From NCBI GenBank assembly GCA_959018155.1, contig CAUEKH010000021.1, positions 1 to 16,685 on the forward strand: DNA of 16,685 nucleotides, written 5' to 3'. The DNA is from an uncultured Hungatella sp. (lineage in GTDB: Bacteria; Bacillota; Clostridia; Lachnospirales; Lachnospiraceae). Shown here piece by piece: positions 88 through 16,146 of this stretch (positions within the stretch are counted from its first letter, which is position 1; each line of letters opens with the position of its first letter). The translations under genes were made by a program, and so were the position numbers. The notes under the pieces were generated by a model. It ran no database searches and had not been told where the DNA came from. It worked only from the letters and a program-made list of their open reading frames with translations.

Positions 88-579
88 ATGGAAAAAGAAA
101 TAGTCTTTAGAAAATTTTCAGAGTTTTCCAGAGGAACTATATATGATATTTTACAGGATGCATATGCTTTTGATTCTAGAAATAAGAGAATCTGGGATGA
201 TAATTGGCATGAATCAGATAATTTTTTCTATGATAATCCTGAAATTGCAGATAAATACGGATTGGTAACATGTATTAATAACGAACCTATTGGATTTGTG
301 ACGTGGGACCCGAGACATCGACCAGAATATGTAGAGATTGGTCATAATGGTATTAGAGCGCTTTATAAGGGTAATGGCTACGGACATGCACAGCTAAAAG
401 AAGCACTCCGCAGAATAAAAGAATATGATAATCTTAAAAGGATTATTGTGTGTACTAATAGTAATTTGGTTGCACCAAAGAATTATGAAAGTGTTGGGTT
501 TAAGTTATATGACAGAAAGAAAAATAATACGGAAAGTGCTTATACAGGGGACTATTTGTATTATGAGATAGTATTATAA
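88..579 (+). CDS. GNAT family N-acetyltransferase, substrate unknown
   Basis: A 163-residue GNAT acetyltransferase that should transfer an acetyl group from acetyl-CoA to an amine; the acceptor cannot be told from sequence. Counting from ATG 88, the acetyl-CoA loop is YKGNGYGHAQLKEAL, an R/Q-x-x-G-x-G-type motif near residue 96, followed by a C-terminal APKNYESVGF segment typical of GNAT motif B. The frame stays open upstream to ATG 10, but I chose ATG 88 because GAGGTG at 77-82 sits five bases before it and because the 26 upstream residues look like a translated leader of different base composition. The gene is A+T-rich and lies 24 nt before a second acetyltransferase, so the two are probably co-transcribed. 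The tandem arrangement suggests a resistance or modification cassette, but this one cannot be assigned to an antibiotic. Confidence 0.8.
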   Translation: MEKEIVFRKFSEFSRGTIYDILQDAYAFDSRNKRIWDDNWHESDNFFYDNPEIADKYGLVTCINNEPIGFVTWDPRHRPEYVEIGHNGIRALYKGNGYGHAQLKEALRRIKEYDNLKRIIVCTNSNLVAPKNYESVGFKLYDRKKNNTESAYTGDYLYYEIVL

Positions 580-603: not shown

Positions 604-1038
604 ATGATAAAAAGAGCAGAAACCAATGATTTAGAAATACTTGCAAAATTAGCTGTGATGATGTGGCGGAACCATTCCGTCAATGAACTAATCAATGAAT
701 TTTCAGAAATTATGGCGAATGGAAAATCACAATTTTTTTTGAAATATGAAAATGACTTTCCTATCGGCTTTGCACAATGTCAATTAAGATATGATTATGT
801 GGAAGGCACAAGTACATCTCCAGTTGGATATTTAGAGGGGATTTTTGTAAAGGAAGGCTATCGTAATAAAGGATACGCTAAAGAATTGTTAGCGGAATGT
901 GAATCATGGGCAAAAGAAAACAGTTGTCATGAGTTTGCCAGCGATTGTGAAATAGATAATATAAACAGTTTCCATTTTCACAAGGCTATGAATTTTACGG
1001 AAGCAAATAGAATTATCTGTTTTACTAAGACATTATAA
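604..1038 (+). CDS. Aminoglycoside 6'-N-acetyltransferase, AAC(6')-I type
   Basis: A 144-residue GNAT protein of the length usual for chromosomal and mobile AAC(6')-I enzymes, which acetylate the 6'-amine of aminoglycosides such as tobramycin or amikacin in the cytoplasm. The segment LRYDYVEGTSTSPVGYLEGI (residues 61-80) is the signature that runs into beta-4 of AAC(6')-Ic-like enzymes. The acetyl-CoA loop R87-N-K-G-Y-A follows, then FASDCEIDN (111-119), in which the family's acidic substrate-contacting residues lie, and a terminal FTKTL. The start is supported by AAAGGAG at 591-597. It is A+T-rich like the preceding acetyltransferase and unlike the downstream genes, consistent with acquisition by transfer. 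Real resistance and substrate range are not shown by sequence; related intrinsic copies in gut Clostridia may be weak or silent. Confidence 0.82.
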   Translation: MIKRAETNDLEILAKLAVMMWRNHSVNELINEFSEIMANGKSQFFLKYENDFPIGFAQCQLRYDYVEGTSTSPVGYLEGIFVKEGYRNKGYAKELLAECESWAKENSCHEFASDCEIDNINSFHFHKAMNFTEANRIICFTKTL

Positions 1039-1117
1039 ATTTCAATTTACATAAGGGGGTGGGATTTTTTCCAACGAGCAAAAATTACTCTTACTATCAC
1101 AAAGAGAAAAGAGCGAA

Positions 1118-1203
1118 AAGGTATAAACACCTTGATATCAGCTTTAATGCCTGCAATGCGTCTCCTACAAGGCTTATTAAGCCTCTAATGCGTAACATAG
1201 TGG
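1118..1203 (+). ncRNA. Candidate structured RNA repeat, copy A
   Basis: First of two diverged copies of an RNA-like element. It opens with a hairpin, AAGGT (1118-1122) pairing ACCTT (1129-1133) around an AUAAAC loop. A second hairpin, AGGCTT/AAGCCT (1170-1175 with 1179-1184), follows, and the copy ends with TAACATAGTGG (1193-1203). Positions 1136-1203 align without gaps to 1275-1342, with about 48 of 68 bases equal by hand count. I recognise no known riboswitch class. The plus strand is favoured only weakly, because the wobble pairs in copy B are G-U on this strand. Confidence 0.5.
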
Positions 1204-1256
1204 TACGAAACAAGATTCAAATGCAAGATTAGATAAAGGGCATTTTTGCGGGTTAA

Positions 1257-1342
1257 GATGTAAACACATCGCCTTATCGGTTTTAGTGCCGGTAATGTCT
1301 TTCTTGCAAGGATTGTCGTGCATCCAATCTGTAACATGGTGG
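1257..1342 (+). ncRNA. Candidate structured RNA repeat, copy B
   Basis: Second copy, offset 137-139 nt from copy A. The opening hairpin is GATGT (1257-1261) with ACATC (1266-1270) around AAAC. Two of its base pairs differ from copy A in a compensated way, while the loop core AAAC is kept. A second hairpin, GATTG/CAATC (1311-1315 with 1325-1329), lies at about the same place as in copy A with different bases, and the copy ends with TAACATGGTGG (1332-1342). Conserved ends with changed but still pairing stems point to RNA structure rather than coding. Confidence 0.5.
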
Positions 1343-1365: not shown

Positions 1366-1396
1366 TTGACACTTTTTTGCCGCCCTTGCTTACAAA
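1366..1396 (+). promoter_or_regulatory. Possible promoter for the small membrane protein
   Basis: A perfect TTGACA at 1366-1371 is followed 18-19 bases later by TTACAA/TACAAA, a weak -10. If used, transcription would start near 1402 and give a 170-nt leader before the 53-aa gene. That leader holds a perfect hairpin, AGACGA-TTT-TCGTCT, at 1499-1513. A promoter here would place the tandem RNA repeats outside this transcript. Confidence 0.35.
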
Positions 1397-1571
1397 ACCA
1401 ACTTATACGGATATATAGCAGAAGATATAGAGATACGGGAAAACCATTGCAAATACAGGATTTCTCCTTGCTGCTATAAACACTTGCAAAAAGTTATAAG
1501 ACGATTTTCGTCTATGAGCCTATTTTAGATAAGAAGTACTCGAAAAATATAAATTTGAAAGAGAAGATATC

Positions 1572-2430: not shown

Positions 2431-3864
2431 ATGGCAAAGGAAAAGAAGTTAGTAGAAGCCATCACATCAATGGATGTGGACTTCGCCCAGTGGTATACGG
2501 ATGTCGTAAAGAAGGCGGAGTTAATTGATTATTCCAGCGTAAAGGGCTGCATGGTTATCAAGCCGGCCGGCTATGCGATCTGGGAAAATATCCAGAGAGA
2601 ACTGGATAAGCGCTTTAAAGAAGTAGGCGTGGAAAATGTTTACATGCCGATGTTTATTCCGGAAAGCCTTCTTCAGAAGGAAAAGGATCATGTGGAAGGA
2701 TTTGCGCCGGAAGTGGCCTGGGTAACTCATGGCGGTTTAGAGCCGCTTCAGGAGCGCCTCTGTGTAAGACCGACCTCCGAGACTCTGTTCTGCGATTTCT
2801 ATGCGCGGGATATTCAGTCGTATCGTGATCTTCCGAAGGTATACAACCAGTGGTGTTCCGTAGTCCGCTGGGAGAAGACAACGAGACCATTTTTACGTTC
2901 CCGTGAGTTCTTATGGCAGGAGGGCCATACAGCCCATGCTACGGCTGAGGAAGCTGCAGCGAGAACGGAGCAGATGTTAAATCTCTACGCTGATTTCTGT
3001 GAAGAGGTTCTGGCTATGCCTGTTATCAGAGGACAGAAGACCGACAAGGAGAAATTTGCGGGCGCTGAGGCGACCTATACCATCGAAGCGCTGATGCACG
3101 ATGGTAAGGCCCTTCAGTCCGGTACGAGCCACAATTTCGGCGACGGATTTGCGAAGGCATTTGAAATTCAGTATGCAGATAAGGATAATAAGCTTCAGTA
3201 TGTCCATCAGACTTCCTGGGGCATGAGTACGAGACTGATCGGCGGAATCATTATGGTTCACGGCGATGACAACGGCTTAAATCTTCCTCCGAGAATCGCA
3301 CCGGTGCAGGTGGTGATTGTCCCGATCAGACAGCAGGCGGAAGGCGTTCTTGAGAAAGCATACGCTCTGAAGGAAACTCTTTCCGGCTACCGCGTAAAAG
3401 TAGATGACACCGATAAGAGCCCGGGTTGGAAATTCAGCGAGTCTGAGATGCGTGGAATTCCGGTTCGTGTGGAAATTGGTCCGAAGGATTTGGAGAACAA
3501 TCAGGCAATTCTTGTACGTCGTGACACTCATGAGAAGATTACAGTCTCTCTCGACGAGATTAATGAGAAGGTAGGAGAACTCTTAGACACGATTCAGCAC
3601 GATATGCTGGAACGCGCCCGCGCTCACCGCGATGCCCATACTTATGAGGCTGTGGAATGGGATAGCTTTGTAAAGACCATTGAAGAGAAGCCTGGATTTG
3701 TGAAAGCCATGTGGTGCGGCTGCCAGGAGTGCGAAGACAAGATTAAAGAACTGACCGGAGCAACATCACGCTGTATGCCATTTAAGCAGGAGAAGCTGGC
3801 CGATACGTGTGTCTGCTGCGGAAAACCGGCGACAAAGATGGTATACTGGGGACGCGCATATTAA
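2431..3864 (+). CDS. proS: Prolyl-tRNA synthetase, type 3 (ThrRS-like)
   Basis: A class II aminoacyl-tRNA synthetase that charges proline tRNA in the cytoplasm. At 477 residues it is the short archaeal/eukaryote-like form without the editing insertion of the long bacterial enzyme. Motif 2 is [20 protein letters not shown] (147-166) with TAHA following, and motif 3 is [20 protein letters not shown] (271-290). The anticodon-binding domain follows (about 292-400). The C-terminal zinc-type domain is rich in cysteines (429, 431, 434, 448, 460, 462, 463) and ends in the typical YWGRAY. ATG 2431 follows AAAGGAG. Expression is expected to be controlled by the proline T-box upstream, and cca 81 nt downstream may share the transcript, since no clear terminator separates them. 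Confidence 0.97.
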
Positions 3865-3945: not shown

Positions 3946-5361
3946 ATGGTAAAGATAGAAATTCCGTCCGGAGCACTGCGGATTCTTGAAAAATTAAATG
4001 CGCACGGATACGAGGCGTACGTTGTAGGCGGCTGTGTCCGCGACAGCCTGCTGGGCAGGACGCCTGGGGACTGGGATATCACGACCTCAGCAAAGCCGAT
4101 GGAAGTGAAAGCGGTTTTTAAGCGGACCATTGACACGGGAATTCAGCACGGGACTGTGACTGTCATGGAAAATCATGAGGGGTATGAGGTGACCACATAC
4201 CGGATTGATGGGGAATATGAAGATGGCCGCCATCCCAAATCGGTAGATTTCACCTCCAGCCTGCTGGAAGATTTGAAACGGCGCGATTTTACCATCAATG
4301 CCATGGCCTGTGACAGCCGGGGCGGATTGGTAGACGCATTTGGGGGCATGGAAGACCTGGAAAATGGCATAATCCGCTGTGTCGGCAGCGCGGTCAGCCG
4401 TTTTACAGAAGATGCGCTGAGGATTCTCAGGGCGATCCGATTTTCCGCTCAGTTGGGATTTACCATAGAAGAGGAGACGAAACAGGCCATTTCTCTGATT
4501 GCCCCGAATTTAGAGAAGGTGAGTCAGGAGCGGATTGCGGTGGAAATGACGAAGTTACTTCTGTCAGACAATCCGGAACGCATGAAGCTGGTGTATGAGT
4601 CAGGCGCGGGTCATTTTATCTCCGCCCAGTTTGAGCGGGCGGCCTCGATGGCGGAAGAGCGCCTGGCTGCAATCAAAAATTTACCCGCCGCCAAATACAT
4701 GAGGTGGGCAGGATTTTTGCGTGATGAGCCAGCCGACACAGCGGTAGGAATCCTGCGGGATTTAAAAATGGACTGCGACACGATGGATAAGGTGAGACTT
4801 CTCGTATCCATGTGGAAAAATGGAATTTCGCCGGAGAAAACAGCGATTCGCCGCGTTATGAGTAAAGTTGGACCAATGTTTGACAGTCTGACAGCATTTC
4901 AGGAGGCGTTTGCTGATGAAATTTGTTTCGGTGGGACAGACGAGTCTGTCGTTCCCGAAGGAAAGTTATCTGGTGAGGCAGATGCAGCTACCGTACCCAA
5001 AGGAAAGTTATCCGTTGAGACAGGCGAGTCTGTCGTTCCCGAAGAAAGTTTATCCGTTGAGACAGGCGCAACAGCACTCCCCAAAGAAAAATTATCCGAT
5101 GACGCATCTCAGGACGCCATACCATACCGGGAAATTCTTCCTACAGTTAAGACCCTGGCGGAGGAAATCCGGGCTGCCGGTGACCCGCTGACTTTAAAGG
5201 ACTTAGCCGTGACAGGCCGGGACCTTATGGCTTATGGAATCAAGCCGGGGCCTGAGTTTGGCCGGACGCTGAATCGTATGCTGGATATGGTGTTAGAGCA
5301 TCCGGCTTATAACAGGAAGGATTTTTTGCTGGCTCAATGTTTTGGGCCGGAGACGAAATAA
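3946..5361 (+). CDS. cca: CCA tRNA nucleotidyltransferase (class II) with a repeat insertion
   Basis: Adds or repairs the CCA end of tRNAs. Motif A is GGCVRDSLLG (28-37) followed by the catalytic DWD (42-44). RRDFTINAMA lies at 112-121, the nucleotide-selecting EDALRILRAIR at 155-165, and ERIAVEM at 195-201. These fit a class II CCA enzyme of the clostridial type, although poly(A) polymerases share most motifs. The 471-residue length is somewhat long; the excess is explained by four 14-residue repeats (332-387) between the body and the tail domain, after which conserved C-terminal sequence resumes. The reading frame is intact. GGAGGTG precedes ATG 3946. The gene follows proS by 81 nt and ends at a hairpin terminator. 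Confidence 0.93.
   Translation: MVKIEIPSGALRILEKLNAHGYEAYVVGGCVRDSLLGRTPGDWDITTSAKPMEVKAVFKRTIDTGIQHGTVTVMENHEGYEVTTYRIDGEYEDGRHPKSVDFTSSLLEDLKRRDFTINAMACDSRGGLVDAFGGMEDLENGIIRCVGSAVSRFTEDALRILRAIRFSAQLGFTIEEETKQAISLIAPNLEKVSQERIAVEMTKLLLSDNPERMKLVYESGAGHFISAQFERAASMAEERLAAIKNLPAAKYMRWAGFLRDEPADTAVGILRDLKMDCDTMDKVRLLVSMWKNGISPEKTAIRRVMSKVGPMFDSLTAFQEAFADEICFGGTDESVVPEGKLSGEADAATVPKGKLSVETGESVVPEESLSVETGATALPKEKLSDDASQDAIPYREILPTVKTLAEEIRAAGDPLTLKDLAVTGRDLMAYGIKPGPEFGRTLNRMLDMVLEHPAYNRKDFLLAQCFGPETK
4939..5106 (+). repeat. Four 42-nt tandem repeats inside cca
   Basis: Four consecutive 14-codon units, DESVVPEGKLSGEA, DAATVPKGKLSVET, GESVVPEESLSVET and GATALPKEKLSDDA. They share a core (S/T)-x-(V/L)-P-(E/K)-x-x-LS and are rich in acidic and polar residues. 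The unit length is kept exactly, so the enzyme frame is never broken. The reverse strand is also open across the array. Confidence 0.9.
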
Positions 5362-6720: not shown

Positions 6721-9700
6721 TTAAAAAGATGAGCAGGCTGATTCTGATTCCAGCATCACTTCCGTCTCCAGTCCATCACGGCAGATAACCTGAAGCGTTG
6801 TGGCCTCCCCCTCAGCCGGATAAACAACGACATTTTGCGGGAGCGGTCCATGGGGCAACCAGATTCCTTTCAATTCGATGGAAAGTGTGGACGGACTGCT
6901 TTCCTTTCCGGCGTCCTCATCGCTCATAATTACTGTATCGCCCAGACCGGCAAGCGGCGGTTTAACGAGGTGCAGATCCGGATCTGATACGGTGAAAGAG
7001 ATAACACGCCCGTGAAATTTAGAAGGTGTAACCGGTTTAATCATAATCATGGCAGGCGCGCTGACCCGCAGGAGATCGCCGCACAGGATGGGAGATGCGG
7101 CGTCAAAGATGGCATAACCGGTCGTTCCATCCGGAAGATAATGGGCAATGTGGGCAGTCTTGTCTTTCTTCAAAACCTGGAAGGAAGGGGTGTTTAACTC
7201 TTTTTCCAATTCTACCGGGGAAGTCTGGACGAGAATCGTATACTGATACTCTCCATTCACCGGCGCAGCGCCATGGTCGAGCCATGCGGTGGCATAGGCG
7301 CCGGAGGTCTGGCGGGAATTATCATGAAGCACCGAATTCTGAACCGTCATGGACAGGTGCAGGCCGCAGGCCTCCGGAATCAGATATCCATTTCCATACG
7401 GATCCATCAGGCAGCAGGCATCGTGGCTGTTCTCACTGAGAATAATGGGATTTCCCGCCGGCAGACCAGAACGCTTCGCCAGCAGATCAGACTGTTCTGC
7501 CGCCAGCCCAGAACGCTTCGCCGGCAGGTCAGACCATTCTGCCGCCAGCCCAGATCGTCCTTCAGACGGATTAGGCCGTTCTGCCGCCAGCCCAGACCAC
7601 CTTTCAGACAGGTCAGGCCGTTCTGCCGCCAGACCAGACCACCTCTCAGATAGATCAGACCGTTCTACCGCCAAACCAGACCATCTTTCAGACAGGTCAG
7701 ACCGTTCCGACGCCAGCCCAGACCGCCCTTCAGACAGCCCAGACCCCTTCGCCTCCATATAAGTCAACACTTCCGACTCCGATTTCCCATCTCTGATGCG
7801 GACGGAATCATGCCCTTCCTGCAGATAGCACTGGAAGAGTGTCGTCTCCGTATTATGGCAGACATCCTCGTTCTCAATCCCGCTTCCCAGACAGAGAAGC
7901 TTATTACCAAAGAAAAACACCGATTTTTTCGCCCGGAAAGACGGTGTATACTGTGTGTCGTGGAGACTCATGGCAAAGAGGCCATTTTCTCCCTGGCAGG
8001 TCACGCCTCCCGTGGCTGTCTCATCGCTGAAATGGCGATGATTTTCCAGTGCGTCGACATACTTAAGCTGTTCATAAGGAAGGCGGATTACCGTTGTCCC
8101 GGGCCAGCGGCACCAGTCCCAGCCTTTGTCCAAATGCCAGCCGCTGTCCTCCGTGTTGACAGGATTCCCACAGCACAGAAGCTGGATAGAGCCGTACGAT
8201 ACGTACCGGCCGAAGAAATTCTCACACCAGCTGGCCTCGTAATCCCAGGAATACTGACTGAACGCTTTCACTGCCGCAAGCCAGTTTTCCTGTCTGTGAA
8301 TGGCCACAGCGCCATATGGTTTGATAAAACAGCCGTGAGGCTTAGGCGCTGTGGGGTATTTCTCCTTTGCGAGACGGATCATCATCTGAAGACTCCCAAG
8401 CGTATCGTAATAAGTTAAATCACAGCCGATTCTCGGGAAAATCCCCCTCGTTAAATAAGGTGATTCCGGATTCCAGTAGTCCATAAAGATCTCTGCCATT
8501 TCCTGATCCACCGGATCGGTGCAGAGGGCCATCAGGGCATAGGCCTGCATCATTTCCTGCATAATCGCGAGCCGGTATGGAAAACGCCCCGAAAGCGCGC
8601 GGGGCACATCGTAATGATTCGTCAAAATTCTCTGAGTAATCAGGGCCTTTTTTAAATTGCGCACAGAATTTTCCGACAGGGCAAAATAAGTGCCATGAAG
8701 AAGCCAGGCGATGACGGAAGCCATATGGAAGGCGTGGGGCGCGTAGGCAACCGTGTAGATGGCGCGGTGGTGGAACCCGGTAAAATCGGGTTTGATGTTG
8801 CAGGCAAACCCGGATCGGATGGCCAGCGCGCCATTTAACCATTTTAAAAATTCCTCCATGTACCGGACCCTCATCGGAGAGTTGTCAAGACACAGGATAT
8901 ATAACAGCTTATAGATGGAATGGGTGCGGATCTCGTCGGCTGTCACCTCCTGCCCCTGATAGTGGAAAATACTCCGGAAATTGATATACCAGCTCATGGC
9001 GTTCAACTCCCGTTTCAGCCGCCCTGTCTCTTTTAATTCCTTTTTCATCAGAAAGACAGCGTAACAGTACCCGGAAGAACGCAGCGTCTCGTGTTCAAGG
9101 GACTGGATGGCACTCCCCTCTGCCCAGCCCTGATCGTGGCAGAAATCAAACAGGGTGAGAATCTTCGCCAGGCGGGCGAGGCAGCCATTCCTCTTATAAT
9201 CAACCATAAGCGGAATAAATATTTTCGTAAATACGTCGCGGAATTCCGGCTGAAACCCGCTTCTCATGGCAAACAGAGGCGCACCCGTAAGCGTTCCGTC
9301 CTCATGACGCCGTATTTTAAGCATATCATAGCGCTCTAAGCCGAGACGGATATACTCTTCCAGCGAATGAAGCCGGATAGTCATGGGAATTTCAGCCGGA
9401 TCCGGGTTCTTACCGAAAATCCAGGTCGAAAGCCGCTCTTCAATCGTGGCAAAAGCCGCTTTCTCCTCTTTTGAAACCGTCTCGGCTCCCGTTTCGGCTC
9501 CTGTTTCGGCTCCCGTTTCCGCTCCCGCCTCCAGAGGTGCGATCCTGCTGTAGAATAAGCTGTCCCAGAAGCCTAAATGGCCGTTTCCGCGGATCTGCGG
9601 CATCTGGTAATCGTGATGGCGAAACCAGGGTGTCTCCTTCTCAAATAGAAACAGGTCAAGGAAAAGCGCCCCTCCCTCTGCCGGATTTTGCGGCGCATTC

Positions 9701-10182
9701 AGCCTCATGACCAGAGGCGCGTTCATCTCCCCCGGCACTTCCCCCACCTCGCTGTCCTCCCGGAAGCGGAACCAGAAGGCGCGCCAGCCGGTATAGTTTA
9801 AGTGAAAGGGAAGCCGGAAGGCATACGCCCCGGTGGCAAGCTGAGTTTCTGTGCAAAATTCAAGAACAAGGTCGTCATCTACGGCATTTTCATTGTAAAC
9901 CCAGCCCAGCATTCCGCCTTTTTCCGAGAAAAATGCCTCCTCCATCCGGGATAGCTGCCTGCCCTCGATAAAGGATCCGGGAAGCCAGTCCCAGCGCAGG
10001 GAAGAATTCCCGTGCTTGTAGTGTTTCTCTGAAAGTGAAAGACGGCCGCCGTGGACCCTCCATTTAGCCAGATCCTCTTTCCTTTCAAAGGATTCCACAC
10101 CTGGAATTTCATTTGGGGCAACGCTCCAGTTTGAGTCATCAAAATTTTTATCAATTTCAATCGTTTTGTCCATTTCAGTCAA
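6721..10182 (-). CDS. PL8 family chondroitin/hyaluronan lyase, cytoplasmic, with repeat insertions
   Basis: A 1153-residue polysaccharide lyase that should cleave chondroitin sulfate, dermatan sulfate or hyaluronan by beta-elimination to unsaturated disaccharides. Order of parts: a jelly-roll Lyase_N domain (about 28-185, with LSEKHYKHGNSSLRWDW), an alpha/alpha toroid (about 245-600) and a beta-supersandwich (about 620 on). Candidate catalytic residues are H471/H472, Y480, R533 (SGRFPYR) and E654 (ENFFGRYVSYG). GWDWCRWPGTTVIRLPYEQL (687-706) is a strong PL8 signature of the chondroitinase ABC type. No signal peptide is visible. The start is TTG 10182: GGAGGA lies 8 nt before it, and the next ATG is too far. 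It overlaps the preceding gene by 8 nt. Two tandem-repeat insertions (about 219-235 and 814-911) lengthen it relative to the usual ~1000 residues. Exact substrate range is not decided. Confidence 0.9.
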   Translation of the reverse strand: MTEMDKTIEIDKNFDDSNWSVAPNEIPGVESFERKEDLAKWRVHGGRLSLSEKHYKHGNSSLRWDWLPGSFIEGRQLSRMEEAFFSEKGGMLGWVYNENAVDDDLVLEFCTETQLATGAYAFRLPFHLNYTGWRAFWFRFREDSEVGEVPGEMNAPLVMRLNAPQNPAEGGALFLDLFLFEKETPWFRHHDYQMPQIRGNGHLGFWDSLFYSRIAPLEAGAETGAETGAETGAETVSKEEKAAFATIEERLSTWIFGKNPDPAEIPMTIRLHSLEEYIRLGLERYDMLKIRRHEDGTLTGAPLFAMRSGFQPEFRDVFTKIFIPLMVDYKRNGCLARLAKILTLFDFCHDQGWAEGSAIQSLEHETLRSSGYCYAVFLMKKELKETGRLKRELNAMSWYINFRSIFHYQGQEVTADEIRTHSIYKLLYILCLDNSPMRVRYMEEFLKWLNGALAIRSGFACNIKPDFTGFHHRAIYTVAYAPHAFHMASVIAWLLHGTYFALSENSVRNLKKALITQRILTNHYDVPRALSGRFPYRLAIMQEMMQAYALMALCTDPVDQEMAEIFMDYWNPESPYLTRGIFPRIGCDLTYYDTLGSLQMMIRLAKEKYPTAPKPHGCFIKPYGAVAIHRQENWLAAVKAFSQYSWDYEASWCENFFGRYVSYGSIQLLCCGNPVNTEDSGWHLDKGWDWCRWPGTTVIRLPYEQLKYVDALENHRHFSDETATGGVTCQGENGLFAMSLHDTQYTPSFRAKKSVFFFGNKLLCLGSGIENEDVCHNTETTLFQCYLQEGHDSVRIRDGKSESEVLTYMEAKGSGLSEGRSGLASERSDLSERWSGLAVERSDLSERWSGLAAERPDLSERWSGLAAERPNPSEGRSGLAAEWSDLPAKRSGLAAEQSDLLAKRSGLPAGNPIILSENSHDACCLMDPYGNGYLIPEACGLHLSMTVQNSVLHDNSRQTSGAYATAWLDHGAAPVNGEYQYTILVQTSPVELEKELNTPSFQVLKKDKTAHIAHYLPDGTTGYAIFDAASPILCGDLLRVSAPAMIMIKPVTPSKFHGRVISFTVSDPDLHLVKPPLAGLGDTVIMSDEDAGKESSPSTLSIELKGIWLPHGPLPQNVVVYPAEGEATTLQVICRDGLETEVMLESESACSSF
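7450..7743 (-). repeat. Fourteen 21-nt repeats (heptapeptides) inside the PL8 lyase
   Basis: Fourteen consecutive heptads of the form S(G/D)L(A/S)(A/E)ER or W, for example SGLAAER alternating with SDLSERW, at residues 814-911. Successive units alternate so that a 42-nt higher-order period is also seen. The array sits between SEVLTYMEAKG and NPIILSENSHDA in the beta-supersandwich domain, likely a surface loop. The array is in frame and free of stops in at least two frames on the opposite strand as well. Confidence 0.93.
9475..9528 (-). repeat. 12-nt (TGAE) tandem repeat inside the PL8 lyase
   Basis: Encodes AGAE-TGAE-TGAE-TGAE-T at about residues 219-235, in the linker between the N-terminal domain and the toroid. 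On the plus strand it reads as GTTTCGGCTCCC-like units. Copy number is about four. Confidence 0.85.
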
Positions 10183-10834
10183 GGCTGGATTCCTCCATGC
10201 GGTTCTTTCTGCATTCCGAAGAGCATTCCTGCAGAAGTTTTTCGAAAGCCCGGTTAAACATCCGGCTGTTGATCCATGCCATCAGGGCAGGCGCGGTAAA
10301 AAGCAGAGGCGGAAACATGGTAAAGCCGACAGCCAGGATGGCAAATTCGGCCATGACCATAATCAGGCTGGATGGCCAGTGGCAGATGGACAGAACGAGG
10401 GCATTTGCGATGGTGCGCCTGACTGTATTTTCAAATTTCGCAGTCATACCGTAGCACCAGGTAAAGGTAAAGAAAAACAGTACAACGGCGCAGAAAAATA
10501 AGGTCATAAGCAGAAATACCACGCCGTCTGCCCGGTTGGAACGGAAATACACAGCCAGATCCATCATGAGAAATCCGCCAAGCAGCAGTTCGATCACCCA
10601 GATGACAGTGGCCTTCTTAAAATTCTGCCGGAAGGCCTGAAAGAAGGAAGAGGTTAAATACCCCTCCTGATTCTTTACGTAAGCCAGCATGACCGTGTAG
10701 AGGGCGGCAGTGGAGGCCCCCACCGTGACGATGGGCAGAGAGAAGACGAGCCACAGCAGGCTTAGCCATACAAAATTCAGGATTTTATTCGTTATGTTCC
10801 AGAGCGGGCTGTTGATGGATAACAGATTTCCCAT
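10175..10834 (-). CDS. DUF624 (YesL-like) membrane protein
   Basis: A 219-residue integral membrane protein of the DUF624/YesL family, commonly encoded beside LplB/YtcP-type sugar transporters and polysaccharide lyases in Firmicutes; its molecular role is not established. Hydrophobic segments lie near the N-terminus (about residues 15-40), around 76-96, 102-130 and 150-190 from the chosen start. The N-terminal SINSPLWNITNKILNFVWLS and GASTAALYTVML are typical family sequence. I start at ATG 10834, which has AAGGAAGG just upstream, rather than the in-frame TTG nine codons earlier, directly after the GH88 stop. The last 8 nt overlap the TTG start of the PL8 lyase. An accessory role to the transporter or in sensing is a reasonable guess only. 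Confidence 0.85.
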   Translation of the reverse strand: MGNLLSINSPLWNITNKILNFVWLSLLWLVFSLPIVTVGASTAALYTVMLAYVKNQEGYLTSSFFQAFRQNFKKATVIWVIELLLGGFLMMDLAVYFRSNRADGVVFLLMTLFFCAVVLFFFTFTWCYGMTAKFENTVRRTIANALVLSICHWPSSLIMVMAEFAILAVGFTMFPPLLFTAPALMAWINSRMFNRAFEKLLQECSSECRKNRMEESSLD

Positions 10835-10861
10835 GACAGTTCCTTCCTTTCCTATGATCAA

Positions 10862-12043
10862 TTACCAGTAAGGGTTCCAGTCCTTCGAAAGACGGGTCAG
10901 CGCTTCCACGTAATAGTAGTCCCCCCACAGATTACATTCATCAATTCCGTGGTCGATGCAGTCGTTGTACGGAGTCTTTCTTCCGTAAACGCCGTGAAGC
11001 AGCTGTCCGTTGGACTGTTCAGGTGATTTGGCGCTGCATTTGTCGACTAAAACCTTCATCAGCTTTCGGGCTGTTATCTGGCAGGCTTCGGCCTCCTCTT
11101 TTGGTAAGTGGCGGGCCATTTCTAAGAGTCCGCAGGCGGTAATGGCACAGGCGGAGGAATCGCGCGGCTCCGGACTTCCATCCGTGAAGGTGAAATCCCA
11201 GTAGGCGATTAAGTCAGATGGCAGATGCTCCAGAAAATAGCTGGCTACACGGCCAAACAGCTCCGGATATTCCGGATTTTTCGTATAAGCGTAGCCTAAA
11301 GCAATCCCGCAGACGCCCCATGACTGGCCTCTCGACCAGGCCGATTCCGCGCTGTAGCCCTGGTGGGTCACACCCTTTAAGGGCGCCCCTGTGTCCGGGT
11401 CAAAGTAGTAGGTGTGATAGGTAGAGTAATCCGGCCGGATTACCACATTTAAAGCGGTCGTTAAATGGGCCTTTGCCAGAGTTTCATATCTGGGATTGCC
11501 CGTCTCCTTTGAAGCCCAGAACAGCAGCGGGAGATTCAACAGGCAGTCGATGATCAACCGGTAGTTGTCGCGGTTATCGAGAGAGCCCCACGCCTGGATA
11601 AACTGCCCTTTTTCGTGGAAACGGGAAGCCAGCTTATCGGCAGCTAACAGGGCGGTTTCCCTGGCCCGCATATCCCCGGTCAGCTTGTAGGCAGCGACGC
11701 AGGAAGGGGAGTAGAGGAAGCCCAGATCGTGGGTATCCGTCTCGATATTGTGATCAATACGATAGCGGAAGCTTTCCACCTGCTCCATGGCAGCGTCTGA
11801 AAATTCTTTCCTGCCGGTCTGTTCATAGGCCAGCCAGAGTTCTCCGGTCCAGAAGCCATTCGTCCACTGGGTATTGGGCGCCGGGCCGTAAAAATTGTGA
11901 TTGGAAAAAATGTGCTTGAACTGGTGGGAAAATTCTCCCAGACAGCTTTCCGTCTGCCTGACAGCTGTGGCCAGGGCTTCCTGAACTTCTTTATCGGTGA
12001 TTGGCGTCTGGGCGGCCAGCGCCGGGGTTACGGTTAATTGCAT
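10862..12043 (-). CDS. ugl: GH88 unsaturated glucuronyl hydrolase
   Basis: A 393-residue glycoside hydrolase family 88 enzyme that hydrolyses the unsaturated uronic acid from disaccharides made by glycosaminoglycan lyases, through hydration of the double bond. The two key aspartates are visible as D106 in THDLGFLYSPS and D166 in YRLIIDCLLNLPLLFWA. ESAWSRGQSWGVCGIALGYAYT and NLWGDYYYVEALTRLSKDWNPYW are also family hallmarks. No signal peptide is seen, as expected for this cytoplasmic enzyme. ATG 12043 follows GGAGGA and lies within the last 10 nt of the upstream lyase gene, so translation is probably coupled. In place of the streptococcal S-x-x-S-x-K segment linked to sulfated substrates, this protein has YGRKTPYNDCIDHG before IDECNLWG, so sulfate preference is uncertain. 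Confidence 0.93.
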   Translation of the reverse strand: MQLTVTPALAAQTPITDKEVQEALATAVRQTESCLGEFSHQFKHIFSNHNFYGPAPNTQWTNGFWTGELWLAYEQTGRKEFSDAAMEQVESFRYRIDHNIETDTHDLGFLYSPSCVAAYKLTGDMRARETALLAADKLASRFHEKGQFIQAWGSLDNRDNYRLIIDCLLNLPLLFWASKETGNPRYETLAKAHLTTALNVVIRPDYSTYHTYYFDPDTGAPLKGVTHQGYSAESAWSRGQSWGVCGIALGYAYTKNPEYPELFGRVASYFLEHLPSDLIAYWDFTFTDGSPEPRDSSACAITACGLLEMARHLPKEEAEACQITARKLMKVLVDKCSAKSPEQSNGQLLHGVYGRKTPYNDCIDHGIDECNLWGDYYYVEALTRLSKDWNPYW

Positions 12044-14133
12044 GAGTGTATTCCTCCTTCGGTGAATAAGGCCAGCGTTTTTGTGAGCTGTTCCTGATTT
12101 TCTGGTGCGTCGGTGACAGATAAGAGCGGTTTAAGAGTCTCTTCCTGCGGTATGGAGTCAGCGATTTTTACCATGACAGCAGAGAGTGAGACAGAAGCCA
12201 GATCGCCATTTTCTTTTCCGTACATGGTAAATGAGGCATCGAGGATGCAGCCTAAATCTTCTTCCTTAGAAATCAAATCCGGGTAAAGTTCCGTCTTTTT
12301 CCAGATGTTTAACTCTGCCTGGTCGCTCCAGAGACAGAAGACGCGAACCCCATTTTTCTCGAGAAGCACGGAATGGGCGGACACTTTCGTGCAGCTTACG
12401 CCGGGCATTAAGTGAAAACGCTGGATGTGGGGCGCGGCCATCCGGTTTCCGCGGTGAATCGTATCGCGGATTAAAAGGCCGCTCTGGCGGTGGAACCAGA
12501 GGCTGCGCTGATGGCGGCAGTAACCGTACGCGTCGTGGTGGGCGCTTACGTAGACGCCATCTGGCGCGGTAATCCAGACATCGACAGGAGTATCCGGCCG
12601 GTAGACGCCCCATTTATCCGCAAAACAGGAATCGGGAACGACAGGCGCGCCATAGGCCAGGACGGTGTTGTGCGATGACATATTATATAAGTAGCCTCTC
12701 GATAAATCGCCCTGGCGGCATTTGTGATAGATGGCCCTGGCGTATGGCTCTCCCACAAAGTCCTCCCCACCAAAAGAGAGACAGAGGGAAAGCATGTCCA
12801 TGTGGTTGTGGCCGGATTCCCCGCAGTCCGTCTTCACGGACATTAAAAAATAGTTTCCGTCCGGGCCGTAGGAATTTCTGGAACTGGCAAATCCGCAGGA
12901 GTCATCACAGAAATCGAGGGGGACCGTTTCCTGGCCGGCCGATTTTCCGTTTCGGATGGCGAGTACGCGCCGGCAGTATTCATTTTCAGCCGTCTCCACG
13001 CCGATATTTAAGATCGGGGAGACAGAGAGGCCGCCGTTATCTCCTACAGATGGGTACTGAGCCGTTGGGGGCGCAATGAGGGCCAGCGCGTTAAACGTGA
13101 GCGTGAGCCGCTGCAGCGCTTCCTTATTTAACAGAGTAACGTGATTGAGCCTGGCTGTGGTAATTCCGCGGTAGAGCATTTCACCCAGCGCAGCGCCGCC
13201 CCAGTAGGGGATGGAGTGTTCGTTATAGCCGCCATTTTTATTGAAGTCCTCCAGAACGTGGCGGGTAACTGTTTCGGCGCCCCGGTCCTTCATCGCCGCA
13301 AAAGCCGGTATTTCAGGAAGCAGAATGGCGAGAAGGCAGGGGACAATCCCTTTCTCCCATAAGTGGTGGTTATATGGCATATACGGCGCATCGTCGAAGC
13401 GGCGGAACTGAATTCCAAGGAACCAGAGGTGCTTAATCAGTTCAAAGGCCAGATCCGTACCGGCCTCGTAGGGAAGCCGTGTATACAAAAGACTTAAAAG
13501 TTCTGTGGCCAGAAAACCGGTGCTCATGATATCCCGCTCCTCAGTCATGGCGAAACGGCCGCTGGAAAAGTCGATATCCTCAACCACCAGCGGGTATGTC
13601 CGGAAAAACGCATGGAAAACTTCTTTGAATTTTTCCACAACCGCGGGATCCCCCGTCTCGTGATACAGAACTGCCAGATATTCAAACAGCTGGCCGCGGA
13701 CGAAGATGTCCTTGACGGTCCTGTGCTTCTTCCCTGTGTCAGTATAGAGATTGAACTGCGGCATATGCTCATACTCCAATCCCAAATCGAGTTCCAGTTC
13801 TCCGCCGGGCCGCACGTAAATCTGTTCTGTCAGAAGTTTTTTTCCGGCGTAGAGACAAAAATCTTTTAAACTTCCTTTTAATCCTATACACGACTGAAAT
13901 GCGTACGGGTGGCTGTCTGTATCAATGGGGCTGACCGGAAGCTTCCGATAGTCGAAGAGATAAGAGACATTTCCCCGCACCTCAAAATAGTGGACCAGTT
14001 CCTTTCTGGCATTTTCCATATCGTCTGCTTTCAGGGCATCGGCCACGCCCTTCAGTTCAGGCCGTGTTAAATCAAAGGCGGCAAATACTTCTTCATCGGT
14101 AACGAGCCGCTGATCACCGGGTATCTGAAACAT
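12034..14133 (-). CDS. Heparinase II/III family polysaccharide lyase
   Basis: A 699-residue lyase-like protein with an N-terminal alpha/alpha toroid (to about residue 365) and a C-terminal heparinase II/III beta-sandwich domain. Likely active-site features, numbered from ATG 14133, are YNHHLWEKG (N255-H256-H257), GGYNEHSIPYWGG (301-313, with a candidate catalytic Tyr) and GHNHMDMLSL (441-450), whose histidines match the metal/catalytic site of this fold. No signal peptide is visible. The family includes heparin, heparan, alginate and hyaluronan/chondroitin lyases (PL12, PL15, PL17, PL21, PL33), and I cannot place it with certainty. The neighbours PL8 and GH88 favour a chondroitin/hyaluronan or broader glycosaminoglycan substrate. 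ATG 14133 is chosen because GGGAGGA lies 7 nt before it; an in-frame TTG two codons earlier is too close. It is first in its operon. Confidence 0.88.
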   Translation of the reverse strand: MFQIPGDQRLVTDEEVFAAFDLTRPELKGVADALKADDMENARKELVHYFEVRGNVSYLFDYRKLPVSPIDTDSHPYAFQSCIGLKGSLKDFCLYAGKKLLTEQIYVRPGGELELDLGLEYEHMPQFNLYTDTGKKHRTVKDIFVRGQLFEYLAVLYHETGDPAVVEKFKEVFHAFFRTYPLVVEDIDFSSGRFAMTEERDIMSTGFLATELLSLLYTRLPYEAGTDLAFELIKHLWFLGIQFRRFDDAPYMPYNHHLWEKGIVPCLLAILLPEIPAFAAMKDRGAETVTRHVLEDFNKNGGYNEHSIPYWGGAALGEMLYRGITTARLNHVTLLNKEALQRLTLTFNALALIAPPTAQYPSVGDNGGLSVSPILNIGVETAENEYCRRVLAIRNGKSAGQETVPLDFCDDSCGFASSRNSYGPDGNYFLMSVKTDCGESGHNHMDMLSLCLSFGGEDFVGEPYARAIYHKCRQGDLSRGYLYNMSSHNTVLAYGAPVVPDSCFADKWGVYRPDTPVDVWITAPDGVYVSAHHDAYGYCRHQRSLWFHRQSGLLIRDTIHRGNRMAAPHIQRFHLMPGVSCTKVSAHSVLLEKNGVRVFCLWSDQAELNIWKKTELYPDLISKEEDLGCILDASFTMYGKENGDLASVSLSAVMVKIADSIPQEETLKPLLSVTDAPENQEQLTKTLALFTEGGIHSCN

Positions 14134-14168
14134 AATCAAATCCTCCCTTTTGCTTTTATGCTTTTATT

Positions 14169-14198
14169 AGTATAATTCCAGTAGGAAAGAAAGAACAA
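14169..14198 (-). promoter_or_regulatory. Promoter of the lyase operon
   Basis: On the minus strand a good -10, TATACT (14174-14169), lies 18 nt after TTGTTC (14198-14193), a poor -35. The 26-bp operator begins 7 nt further upstream. A poor -35 beside a bound site suggests activation. The predicted start near 14161 leaves a leader of about 28 nt. Confidence 0.6.
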
Positions 14199-14205
14199 TG
14201 ATATA

Positions 14206-14231
14206 TTTTTGCAAAATGATACTTTTTTGCA
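14206..14231 (-). promoter_or_regulatory. Operator candidate facing the lyase operon
   Basis: Read on the minus strand it is TGCAAAAAA-N9-TGCAAAAA, two half-sites exactly 18 nt apart. It matches the element at 14338-14363 in inverted orientation with three mismatches in 26 positions, all in the spacer. Two direct half-sites spaced by under two helical turns next to a weak -35 resemble AraC-type activator sites; the regulator is not in the window. Confidence 0.65.
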
Positions 14232-14337
14232 GGCCAAAAGGGAAATCAGCACAGAAATCAGGAAAAAAATGGCATTTCGAGAAGGAAAACAGGAGAAAGT
14301 CCGCATAAATACTGGCTTTTCCACCGAAAAAGACGGC

Positions 14338-14365
14338 TGCAAAAAAGTGGTATTTTGCAAAAAAA
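14338..14365 (+). promoter_or_regulatory. Operator candidate facing the transporter operon
   Basis: TGCAAAAAA-N9-TGCAAAAAAA with the same 18-nt half-site spacing as the mirrored copy at 14206-14231. It ends one base before the stretch expected to hold the -35 of the solute-binding protein promoter. Confidence 0.65.
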
Positions 14366-14378
14366 CGGGAATTGCGGC

Positions 14379-14395
14379 TGCAAAAAATGTATGAT
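14379..14395 (+). promoter_or_regulatory. Third TGCAAAAAA box and probable -10
   Basis: A fifth TGCAAAAAA half-site (14379-14387) lies 23 nt after the previous one and overlaps the spacer of a probable promoter with -10 TATGAT (14390-14395). The matching -35 position (about 14367-14372) reads GGGAAT, far from consensus, so activation would be needed. The extra half-site could allow repression when occupied. Confidence 0.4.
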
Positions 14396-14457
14396 AAGGT
14401 CAGTGCAGGACAGGCGGTAAGCCAGGTCGAAAAAATTTAAAATGGAGGAAGAAGTTC

Positions 14458-16146
14458 ATGAGAAATCAGAAAAGATGGGTTGCCTGTTTGATGGCGGCAA
14501 TCATGGCAGGAGGAACGCTGGCGGGCTGCGGCGCGTCTGCATCGAAAACAGAAACTACAACAGCAAAGACAGAGGCTGCCGGGACTACAGACACGAAGGC
14601 GGCAGACACAACAGAGGCAGCGGCAGGCGGGGAACTGACCGTTGAGGAAGAATTTGCTCAGGATATGGCAGCGGAACCGATTGTAATGGAATGGAGAAAT
14701 GGCAGTACAACAGCGGAAATTGATGAGAATTCGGAAATCGTACAGTATCTAAAGGAACGTTTCAATGTGATTGAGAAATCCTGGTATGTGGACAGCAAGA
14801 ATTACTGGGAGAATGTCAACGTGCGTTTCGCGGGAGGCGAGATGCCGGATGTCTTAAGAATTGATAATGTTTCTCAGTTATCTTCCCTGGTGGAGGGCGG
14901 TATCGTAGCCGAACTTCCTATTGAGACAATCCGCAAGTACGCGCCAAACTACGCCAAGGTCATGGACGAGAACGATGACGGTTCCTACTGGACCACGCTT
15001 CTCTATAAAGGAAAGAACTACGGGATTGCCTGCCCCCAGGCGCCGACGCCTCACGCGATGATCTGGAGAAAGGACTGGCTGGACCGTCTCGGTTTAGAGG
15101 TTCCGACCACTCTGGAGGAGTATGAGAAGGTTCTGACAGCATTTGTAGAAGATGACCCGGATGGAAACGGTAAAAATGATACCGCAGGTATGGCAGAGCG
15201 TGCCATGGGCGCTATTTTCGGCGCATATGGAGTCAGATGTGTGACCGGCCTCGATACCCGTTCCCAGTTCTTTACAGAGGAAATGCAGCTGGGAGAGGAC
15301 AATGTTCCATTCTTCCCGTATATCCGCCCGGAGGCTAAGGAAGGACTTGCGCTTCTCCATGACTGGTACGAGAAAGGCATCATTGATAAAGAATTTATCA
15401 CAGGTGAAAATCATGGCGGCTACGGCGGACTGTCCCATTCCTTTATGAACGGACAGATCGGACTGACCACAGCTCAGCCGTACCACTATCTTGTGGCAAG
15501 TACGGATTCTTCTGATGAGAGCAACTGGGGTATCTGTATGAAAGAATTTAAGGCTTTAAATCCTGACGGTGATATCGTTTACGGTCCGGCTCCGATCGGT
15601 CCTGACGGAAAGTCCGGCACAGAGGCATGGGGCAAGCTGGGGTCATTTACGTGTCTGACAACGAAGGCCGCGGAGGATCCGAGAAAGGTACGGACCTTCT
15701 TAAGAACACTGGATGACTATTTCACAGACGTGGAATATATGAAGATGGTAAACTTCGGAATCGAAGGCAAGCACTATAAAGCCAATGACGGAAATCCACA
15801 GAGACTGGTTGACGGCACAGAACTGCGCAAGCAGGGAATTCTGACGGTAGACTTTGGAAATACACCGAAGTACGCGGAGGAGATTACCAGCAAGAAGACG
15901 GCATTTGGCAAGGAAGTGACAGGAAATGGATATTACCGTTTCAATGTTCCGCCGGTAGAAGAATTTACCAACGCGATTGCAACGCTGGATACAATGACAG
16001 AGCAGGCTTACTTCGATATCATCAGCGGGGCGAAGCCGGTGGATTACTTCGACACCTTTGTGGAGGAATTTAAGAAAGCCGGCGGCGAGGCTGCGGAAAA
16101 AGCGGTTCAGGAAGAGTACGCCAGCAGACTGGAAGCTTTAAAGTAA
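14458..16146 (+). CDS. Lipoprotein solute-binding protein of a carbohydrate ABC importer
   Basis: A 562-residue extracellular solute-binding protein of the YtcQ/LipO type. A basic N-terminus, a hydrophobic helix and the lipobox LAGC (C24) indicate lipid anchoring on the outer face of the membrane. A Thr/Ala/Glu-rich linker follows (about 30-58). DPDGNGKNDT (233-242) is an EF-hand-like calcium loop typical of this family. The nearest characterised relatives by type are binding proteins that take up host glycosaminoglycan or plant/pectin oligosaccharides. Next to PL8, GH88 and a heparinase-type gene, chondroitin or hyaluronan oligosaccharides are the likely ligand (inference). GGAGG precedes ATG 14458. 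It is transcribed away from the lyase operon, with the mirrored operators between, and is followed by a hairpin and the permease gene. Confidence 0.92.
   Translation: MRNQKRWVACLMAAIMAGGTLAGCGASASKTETTTAKTEAAGTTDTKAADTTEAAAGGELTVEEEFAQDMAAEPIVMEWRNGSTTAEIDENSEIVQYLKERFNVIEKSWYVDSKNYWENVNVRFAGGEMPDVLRIDNVSQLSSLVEGGIVAELPIETIRKYAPNYAKVMDENDDGSYWTTLLYKGKNYGIACPQAPTPHAMIWRKDWLDRLGLEVPTTLEEYEKVLTAFVEDDPDGNGKNDTAGMAERAMGAIFGAYGVRCVTGLDTRSQFFTEEMQLGEDNVPFFPYIRPEAKEGLALLHDWYEKGIIDKEFITGENHGGYGGLSHSFMNGQIGLTTAQPYHYLVASTDSSDESNWGICMKEFKALNPDGDIVYGPAPIGPDGKSGTEAWGKLGSFTCLTTKAAEDPRKVRTFLRTLDDYFTDVEYMKMVNFGIEGKHYKANDGNPQRLVDGTELRKQGILTVDFGNTPKYAEEITSKKTAFGKEVTGNGYYRFNVPPVEEFTNAIATLDTMTEQAYFDIISGAKPVDYFDTFVEEFKKAGGEAAEKAVQEEYASRLEALK

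Follow-up and report, generated by a model that had tools for sequence, protein, structure and literature searches.

Both tandem repeats described here are probably decayed copies of a double-stranded DNA element, a site read by a protein, that occurs in the conjugative and mobilizable elements (ICEs/IMEs) of clostridia. They lie near the left end of the window, which is the whole stretch of DNA analyzed, 16,685 nucleotides from an uncultured Hungatella sp. (contig CAUEKH010000021.1). The initial annotation had interpreted the pair as tandem riboswitches or paired regulatory RNAs within an acquired segment; the diverged tandem duplication of a conserved non-coding unit and the acquired nature of the segment were upheld, whereas the riboswitch or regulatory RNA reading is disfavoured.

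The repeat pair and its surroundings

The ungapped alignment of positions 1136-1203 with 1275-1342 presented 48 identities over 68 positions, confirming the earlier hand count, while no 68-nt self-match exceeded 39 when the 1001-1800 region was dinucleotide-shuffled 300 times. Transitions prevailed among the differences, as had been observed (14 of 20, read from the printed alignment), and the TAACAT(A/G)GTGG and AAAC motifs were found in the copies; an automated repeat search missed the pair. The compensated stem changes proposed for the first hairpin did not hold. In the first copy this hairpin is AAGGT-ATAAAC-ACCTT (1118-1133), with 1118-1122 paired with 1129-1133, and in the second it is GATGT-AAAC-ACATC (1257-1270), with 1257-1261 paired with 1266-1270; the AAAC motifs are offset by 137 nt, not 139, and the hairpins have no homologous column pair in common because their stems are two columns out of register. 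They are similar hairpins, not compensated homologous pairs. RNA folding stability was ordinary, with z values of –0.12 and –0.93 on the forward strand and 0.67 and –0.32 on the reverse strand for the first and second copies, respectively.

The natural repeat units proved longer than first described (about 1085-1198 and 1220-1337) and terminate in the arms CTAATGCGTAACA and CCAATCTGTAACA, respectively, their ends having been assigned by the authors, from the arm in the first copy. The features of this region are the following:

88..579, + strand: another GNAT acetyltransferase gene, accessory cargo (38.4 bits to Pfam Acetyltransf_1, cutoff 20.7)
604..1038, + strand: AAC(6')-type acetyltransferase gene, accessory cargo (NF043067 AAC_6p_group_E, 190.9 bits, cutoff 140; Acetyltransf_1)
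1085..1198, + strand: first copy of the ~114-bp element, with the right arm intact at 1186-1198 and the left arm decayed
1220..1337, + strand: second copy of the ~114-bp element, with the right arm at 1325-1337 and the left arm partly recognisable
about 1389..1515, + strand: stretch resembling an ICE end, homologous to loci L082, L091, L083, L092/L093, L108, L133 and L238
1948-2190: T-box leader (RF00230, 93.9 bits, just over the cut-off of 93), upstream of proS (2431-3864)

Two matching 13-bp arms are not present in either window copy, only the right arms being preserved and the left ones decayed, with the core AGATT of the second copy's left arm in common with its right arm. The function of these copies is doubtful because clear left arms are missing, and they are probably inactive. 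By sequence similarity both belong to a family of ~114-bp ICE elements, of which they are degenerate members. Against R1, a roughly calibrated model built from 11 copies found by DNA search, the first copy scored 24.4 bits over 1089-1197 and the second 21.2 bits over 1222-1308 (the 3′ part aligned poorly), with E-values of 1.1e-5 and 6.2e-5, respectively, in 601 bases and of 0.006 and 0.05 in 332,787 bases. Among the collected loci (L numbers), blastn matched the first copy to L094 (E 1.5e-8) and L081 (E 5.2e-8) and the second to L083/L085 (E 5.8e-6); in addition, the first copy matched a scaffold in the whole phage collection (E 4e-3) and the second was similar to the Subdoligranulum record OY725881. 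A degenerate pattern built from both window copies had 0 matches in viral contigs, and the short matches (E 0.5-6) to named phages and to E. coli, Calothrix and Prevotella plasmid records were taken as chance.

The AAC(6')-type gene corresponds to the acetyltransferase previously noted before the pair, and the window order is GNAT gene, AAC(6')-type gene, first copy, second copy and the 1389-1515 stretch. An element copy likewise precedes the equivalent stretch in L083, L092, L108, L133 and L238, and in these relatives the stretch lies near the end of a mobile element, so that in the window it may represent an ICE end. Positions 1367-1520 were similar to Subdoligranulum records (E 9e-17, blastn). 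In the window, similarity to the relatives of this stretch ends at ~1515-1520, but L083, L091 and L092 continue past it with a common run like AATCAATAAAAAAT and then diverge, so that the ICE end can be placed only approximately in the window. On the other side, resemblance to the DNA that precedes proS in 80 relatives starts at 1884 at the earliest (L001-L003), just before the T-box. Therefore, the left part of the window looks like the acquired, decayed margin of an ICE.

Farther right, in-frame near-repeats (VPE/VPKGKLSVET, at ~4900-5084) were observed by eye in a tRNA-nucleotidyltransferase-like ORF at 3946-5361, and others (ETGAETGA..., SGLAAERSDLSERW...) in a large ORF at 6721-10182, both of which look like repeat expansion within genes. 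The 10175-16146 region is likely a polysaccharide-degradation cluster, with glycoside-hydrolase-, heparinase- and solute-binding-protein-like ORFs recognized by eye.

The 114-bp element and its hosts

Among 171 extracted copies (window copies included, ends assigned by the authors), 160 were 113-116 nt long. Intact copies present two inverted 13-bp arms, TGT-N7-TAG ... CTA-N7-ACA, placed at a nearly fixed outer distance around a conserved interior. In 62 clusters, conservation comprised the TGT and TAG at the arm ends, the AA following TAG, the interior words TTTT, GGG and, more weakly, GTATAA, and AAA.CC and AAGG..TTT near the right side. The arm middles differ by subfamily (TACGCAG, CACGCAA, GGACGGT, GGAATAT, TACGCTT, CCGCAAC) and, though variable, are usually matched left to right; hybrid copies with two non-matching arm types were found in L245, L246 and L266. 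In the interiors of L170, L171 and L172, the inner AAAGCC..GGCTTT loop resembles a reverse-complemented version of the usual one (TTGATTTATGC vs GCATAAATCAA), which would suggest a flip of this hairpin. A conserved ORF across the copies, which the initial annotation considered incompatible with a structured RNA, was not found, and a coding unit was rejected since any given frame ran uninterrupted through at most 49 of 143 copies; some open frame existed in 78 of the 143, an unremarkable proportion for sequences of this length.

A fuzzy arm search in the collected loci, with 80-145 bp allowed, retrieved only 114-bp units, and an arm pattern allowing 101-129 bp retrieved five copies in viral contigs, all of 114 bp, and hit 4 of 391 class genomes, where three copies measured 114 bp and one 115 bp. 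For example, the copy on a phage-collection scaffold (L081), which adjoins a DUF6017-like gene, is bounded by the perfect 13-nt inverted repeat TGTTACGCAGTAG ... CTACTGCGTAACA. The many homologues anticipated by the initial annotation were indeed retrieved by R1 at E ≤ 1e-3, in 59 of 299 genomes in the family of G001 and in 33 of 341 genomes of the class, with up to 9 matches per genome. Judging from these matches, the ~114-bp element is widespread in the ICEs/IMEs of gut clostridia. In the Campylobacter jejuni plasmid NZ_CP028186.1 (L289) the order is Cys_rich_VLP, element, RepA and MobV, resembling a mobilizable element, which suggests spread beyond Firmicutes into an epsilonproteobacterial plasmid.

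The hosts are ICEs of the Tn1549/CTn type, with VirB4, VirB6 and VirD4 named after CD1110, CD1112 and CD1115, and they also carry DUF6017, relaxase and Cys_rich_VLP genes; according to passages of PMC3158075, C. difficile CTn4 corresponds to CD1091-CD1118. Nevertheless, no such 114-bp element appears in passages of PMC5871717, PMC3158075 and PMC5704250, nor was a description found in the openly available ICE/IME literature covered. Within the same open literature, no paper was found on DUF6017 and one relevant paper on Cys-rich VLP. The element is apparently undescribed.

As expected from the initial annotation, its gene context is recurrent. A replication-type ORF starts within 60 nt of 48 of 158 unique copies (both window copies counted among the 158, and two of the 48 short remnants), most often at 9 or 26-28 nt, and a Cys_rich_VLP-type gene, recognized by motif, abuts 27 of the 158, ending 13 nt inside the arm in 15 of these 27; neighbours were mechanical ORFs, some of them spurious, and some ORF clusters mix antisense ORFs. 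Pfam searches on examples identified DUF6017/HTH_36, RepA_N and Phage_rep_org_N at four of the 48, and AAA_25 (L169) and Mob_Pre (L206, 21 nt from the copy) at two further copies. The L163 and L164 subfamilies lie beside apparently ordinary chromosomal genes (by eye, among the first 68 copies).

In an annotated Monoglobus ICE, two direct copies bracket the transfer operon. Copy 1 has on one side DUF6017, with which the leftward transfer operon starts, and on the other a recombinase-family gene located past the right end. Copy 2, at the opposite end of this operon, overlaps the terminal part of Cys_rich_VLP and faces a mobC-relaxase-HTH operon, being located between convergent operons, without a gene directly downstream or an adjacent replication gene. 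The ICE at L288/L104 (NZ_OY725736.1 ~207.6-236.3 kb) seems to interrupt a serine-recombinase gene and is flanked on either side by genes annotated as recombinase-family.

Arm sharing and alternative explanations

Paired copies have similar arms but different interiors, in agreement with a double-stranded site recognized in trans by a protein. A helix has to match only itself, and therefore arm words common to distant copies indicate a factor acting in trans. In 14 pairs assigned to a single ICE by their contig, orientation and spacing (about 7-45 kb) rather than by annotation, arm identity was 0.948 within presumed ICEs and 0.919 between them (permutation p 0.0004). Interiors were also slightly closer within pairs (0.665 vs 0.644, p 0.0016), so that shared ancestry may contribute to the likeness of the arms. 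The clearest case is G001, with the TGTCACGCG arm on both copies, and the result rests mainly on it because most other pairs have the common arm. Moreover, two arm types are combined within tandem pairs in L153, L155, L157, L235 and L236, and therefore a single reader protein is no simple explanation.

Site-specific recombination or cassette capture, by which circular modules or gene-plus-element units would enter through exchange between two elements, leaving direct repeats and clean breaks at the element edges, is possible, if somewhat unlikely. Besides the window, direct tandem pairs within about 1.1 kb were found at nine loci (L138, L153, L155, L157, L186, L197, L200, L235, L236) in a survey of 144 loci that skipped those >12 kb and in which L151 and L250, two of the 13 multi-copy loci, were one element matched on both strands; R1 recognized a further pair at L142. 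Several of the tandem loci share subfamilies and so are not independent cases. At L186 (1067-2793), two direct copies flank a single membrane-protein-like ORF beside Cys_rich_VLP, in a cassette-like arrangement of gene, element, gene and element. Besides L186, evidence in favour comprises the hybrid arms, the direct repeats bracketing the Monoglobus transfer operon, and one element found beside different replication genes: L257 and L268 have the element and right flank in common, their left homology breaks at –6, and they lie beside Phage_rep_org_N and RepA_N, respectively. One-sided flank homology was also common (293 of 1390 similar pairs, window copies left out), and 80 pairs were flagged for homology breaks, many near an element edge, a clustering that is only a hint. 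However, some flagged breaks arise only from a flank indel (e.g., L081/L109), homology also breaks within the element and far from it, and clean breaks may only reflect a conserved element between unconserved flanks; in addition, L186 is the one clear cassette, and no dedicated recombinase was noticed beside the sites in an unsystematic inspection.

Two known recombination sites offer partial parallels. Integron attC sites carry the core boxes GTTRRRY / RYYYAAC, and the element resembles them in its variable yet matched inverted arms, its places 3′ of accessory genes and the single cassette-like case, but its arms are TGT-N7-TAG and, by eye, not attC boxes, its length is nearly fixed and its interior sequence is conserved. 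The res sites of Tn3/γδ span ~114 bp, with half-sites starting with TGT, and the element shares with them the span, the outward inverted TGT half-sites and the fixed spacing; in contrast, no three-dimer subsite pattern was recognized by eye and no resolvase gene was noticed beside the sites.

An origin of replication, or a single-strand initiation site, of the mobile element once excised or transferred would agree with positions directly 5′ of DUF6017, RepA_N, Phage_rep_org_N, AAA_25 and Mob_Pre genes, yet we find it rather unlikely; Frpo and sso-type single-strand sites were considered but not retained. These adjacent families are unrelated, and the arm type is independent of them: DUF6017-type genes that encode the same 50 N-terminal residues adjoin arms of the TGTTACGC and CGTGGAAT types (L137, L162), and the arm type does not follow the replication protein because the L257/L268 element adjoins different replication genes. 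A Rep-binding origin was rejected on this ground. The second Monoglobus copy has no replication gene beside it. As to an oriT, which would adjoin a relaxase gene, Mob_Pre lies 21 nt from the L206 copy, and the second Monoglobus copy comes after and not before mobC-relaxase.

It is unlikely that the element acts as a structured RNA closed by the 13-bp stem, be it a 5′ leader, a 3′-end element of the transfer operon or an sRNA. Full-length copies folded better than shuffles as RNA or single-stranded DNA on both strands (mean z –4.28 on the forward and –3.91 on the reverse), the interior alone doing so slightly (–1.36 and –1.06); these values refer to 83 copies chosen for paired arms, those below 90% identity among the 138 of 158 unique copies with at least 10 of 13 arm positions paired and a length of 112-117. 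RNAalifold found a closing stem with paired changes, and the short distances to replication-type start codons would suit a leader. Nevertheless, covariation was found in the terminal arms and supported no inner helix. In 81 non-redundant copies (of 143; arms at least 8/13 paired, length 113-116, effective number 50.5), the pair-consistent signal fell in the arms, and the interior pairs in the top list were isolated and formed no helix. With expected pairing predicted from column composition, observed and expected values were 0.88 vs 0.64 in the arm middles, and in the candidate inner helices 0.64 vs 0.61 (81 copies) and 0.72 vs 0.67 (the 49 copies of exactly 114 nt); these candidate helices, without covariation, were rejected.

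An RNA helix on either strand should favour G-T or A-C over the other. For the arms, 66 clusters of copies 112-117 long, without those of the window, gave 858 cells, of which 724 were Watson-Crick, 32 G-T, 37 A-C and 65 other, showing no wobble preference (32 vs 37, p 0.63), and the counts were 38 vs 38 in the 83 sequences selected for paired arms. The arm sequence common to distant copies and the second Monoglobus copy, with no gene directly downstream to lead, also stand against an RNA. In agreement with the initial annotation, no Rfam family matched the window copies, and among 11 loci scanned with E up to 5, 9 of them with a copy, no match overlapped a copy.

A MITE- or REPIN-like mobile repeat is very improbable, since the ends diverge between subfamilies yet stay matched (a MITE was rejected on this divergence), positions recur beside particular ICE/IME genes and no target-site duplication was seen by eye in the listed flanks, although the terminal inverted repeats begin with TGT and a genome may hold up to 9 matches. 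REPINs/BIMEs measure about 110 bp and are built of two halves in inverted orientation, whose arms have TAG on their inner side, features to which the element comes close, differing in its recurrent ICE/IME gene positions, in arms that match beyond TAG and in its few copies per genome.

Proposed role in mobile elements

Returning to the protein-read DNA site, a protein encoded by the mobile element would read the TGT-N7-TAG half-sites in trans, and a candidate for this function is Cys_rich_VLP, whose gene runs into the site. Its predicted structure comprises a zinc ribbon and a basic helix in the tail (pLDDT 67.9, a weak prediction overall, only the C-terminal part being confident). Loci with TGTC arms tend to have RKRKQR in this tail and those with TGTT arms RMRKRR-like tails, a correlation that is confounded by linkage and suggestive only. 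The site may serve a DNA step of the excised or transferring element, such as replication or maintenance, multimer resolution or site-specific exchange, and modules might be swapped at its edges. The window pair would then be what is left of such sites at the margin of a decayed ICE, next to the acetyltransferase genes that the ICE carried as cargo. A broader proposal, that of a new class of mobile-element DNA site in gut clostridia, in which inverted half-site pairs with a fixed span of 114 bp, read by the Cys_rich_VLP encoded next to them, would let ICEs/IMEs swap replication genes and take up single cargo genes between direct repeats, integron-like without an integron, is speculative and decidedly unlikely.

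Tn1549-like ICEs carry vanB and other resistance genes. How excised IMEs are maintained is described as an "unexplored world" by the review PMC5704250. In this context, an element placed beside replication genes, together with a candidate partner protein, may offer a handle on how ICEs/IMEs replicate, resolve and exchange modules. Furthermore, wobble symmetry combined with arm sharing between copies could serve as a test for distinguishing inverted DNA sites from RNA helices in comparative screens.
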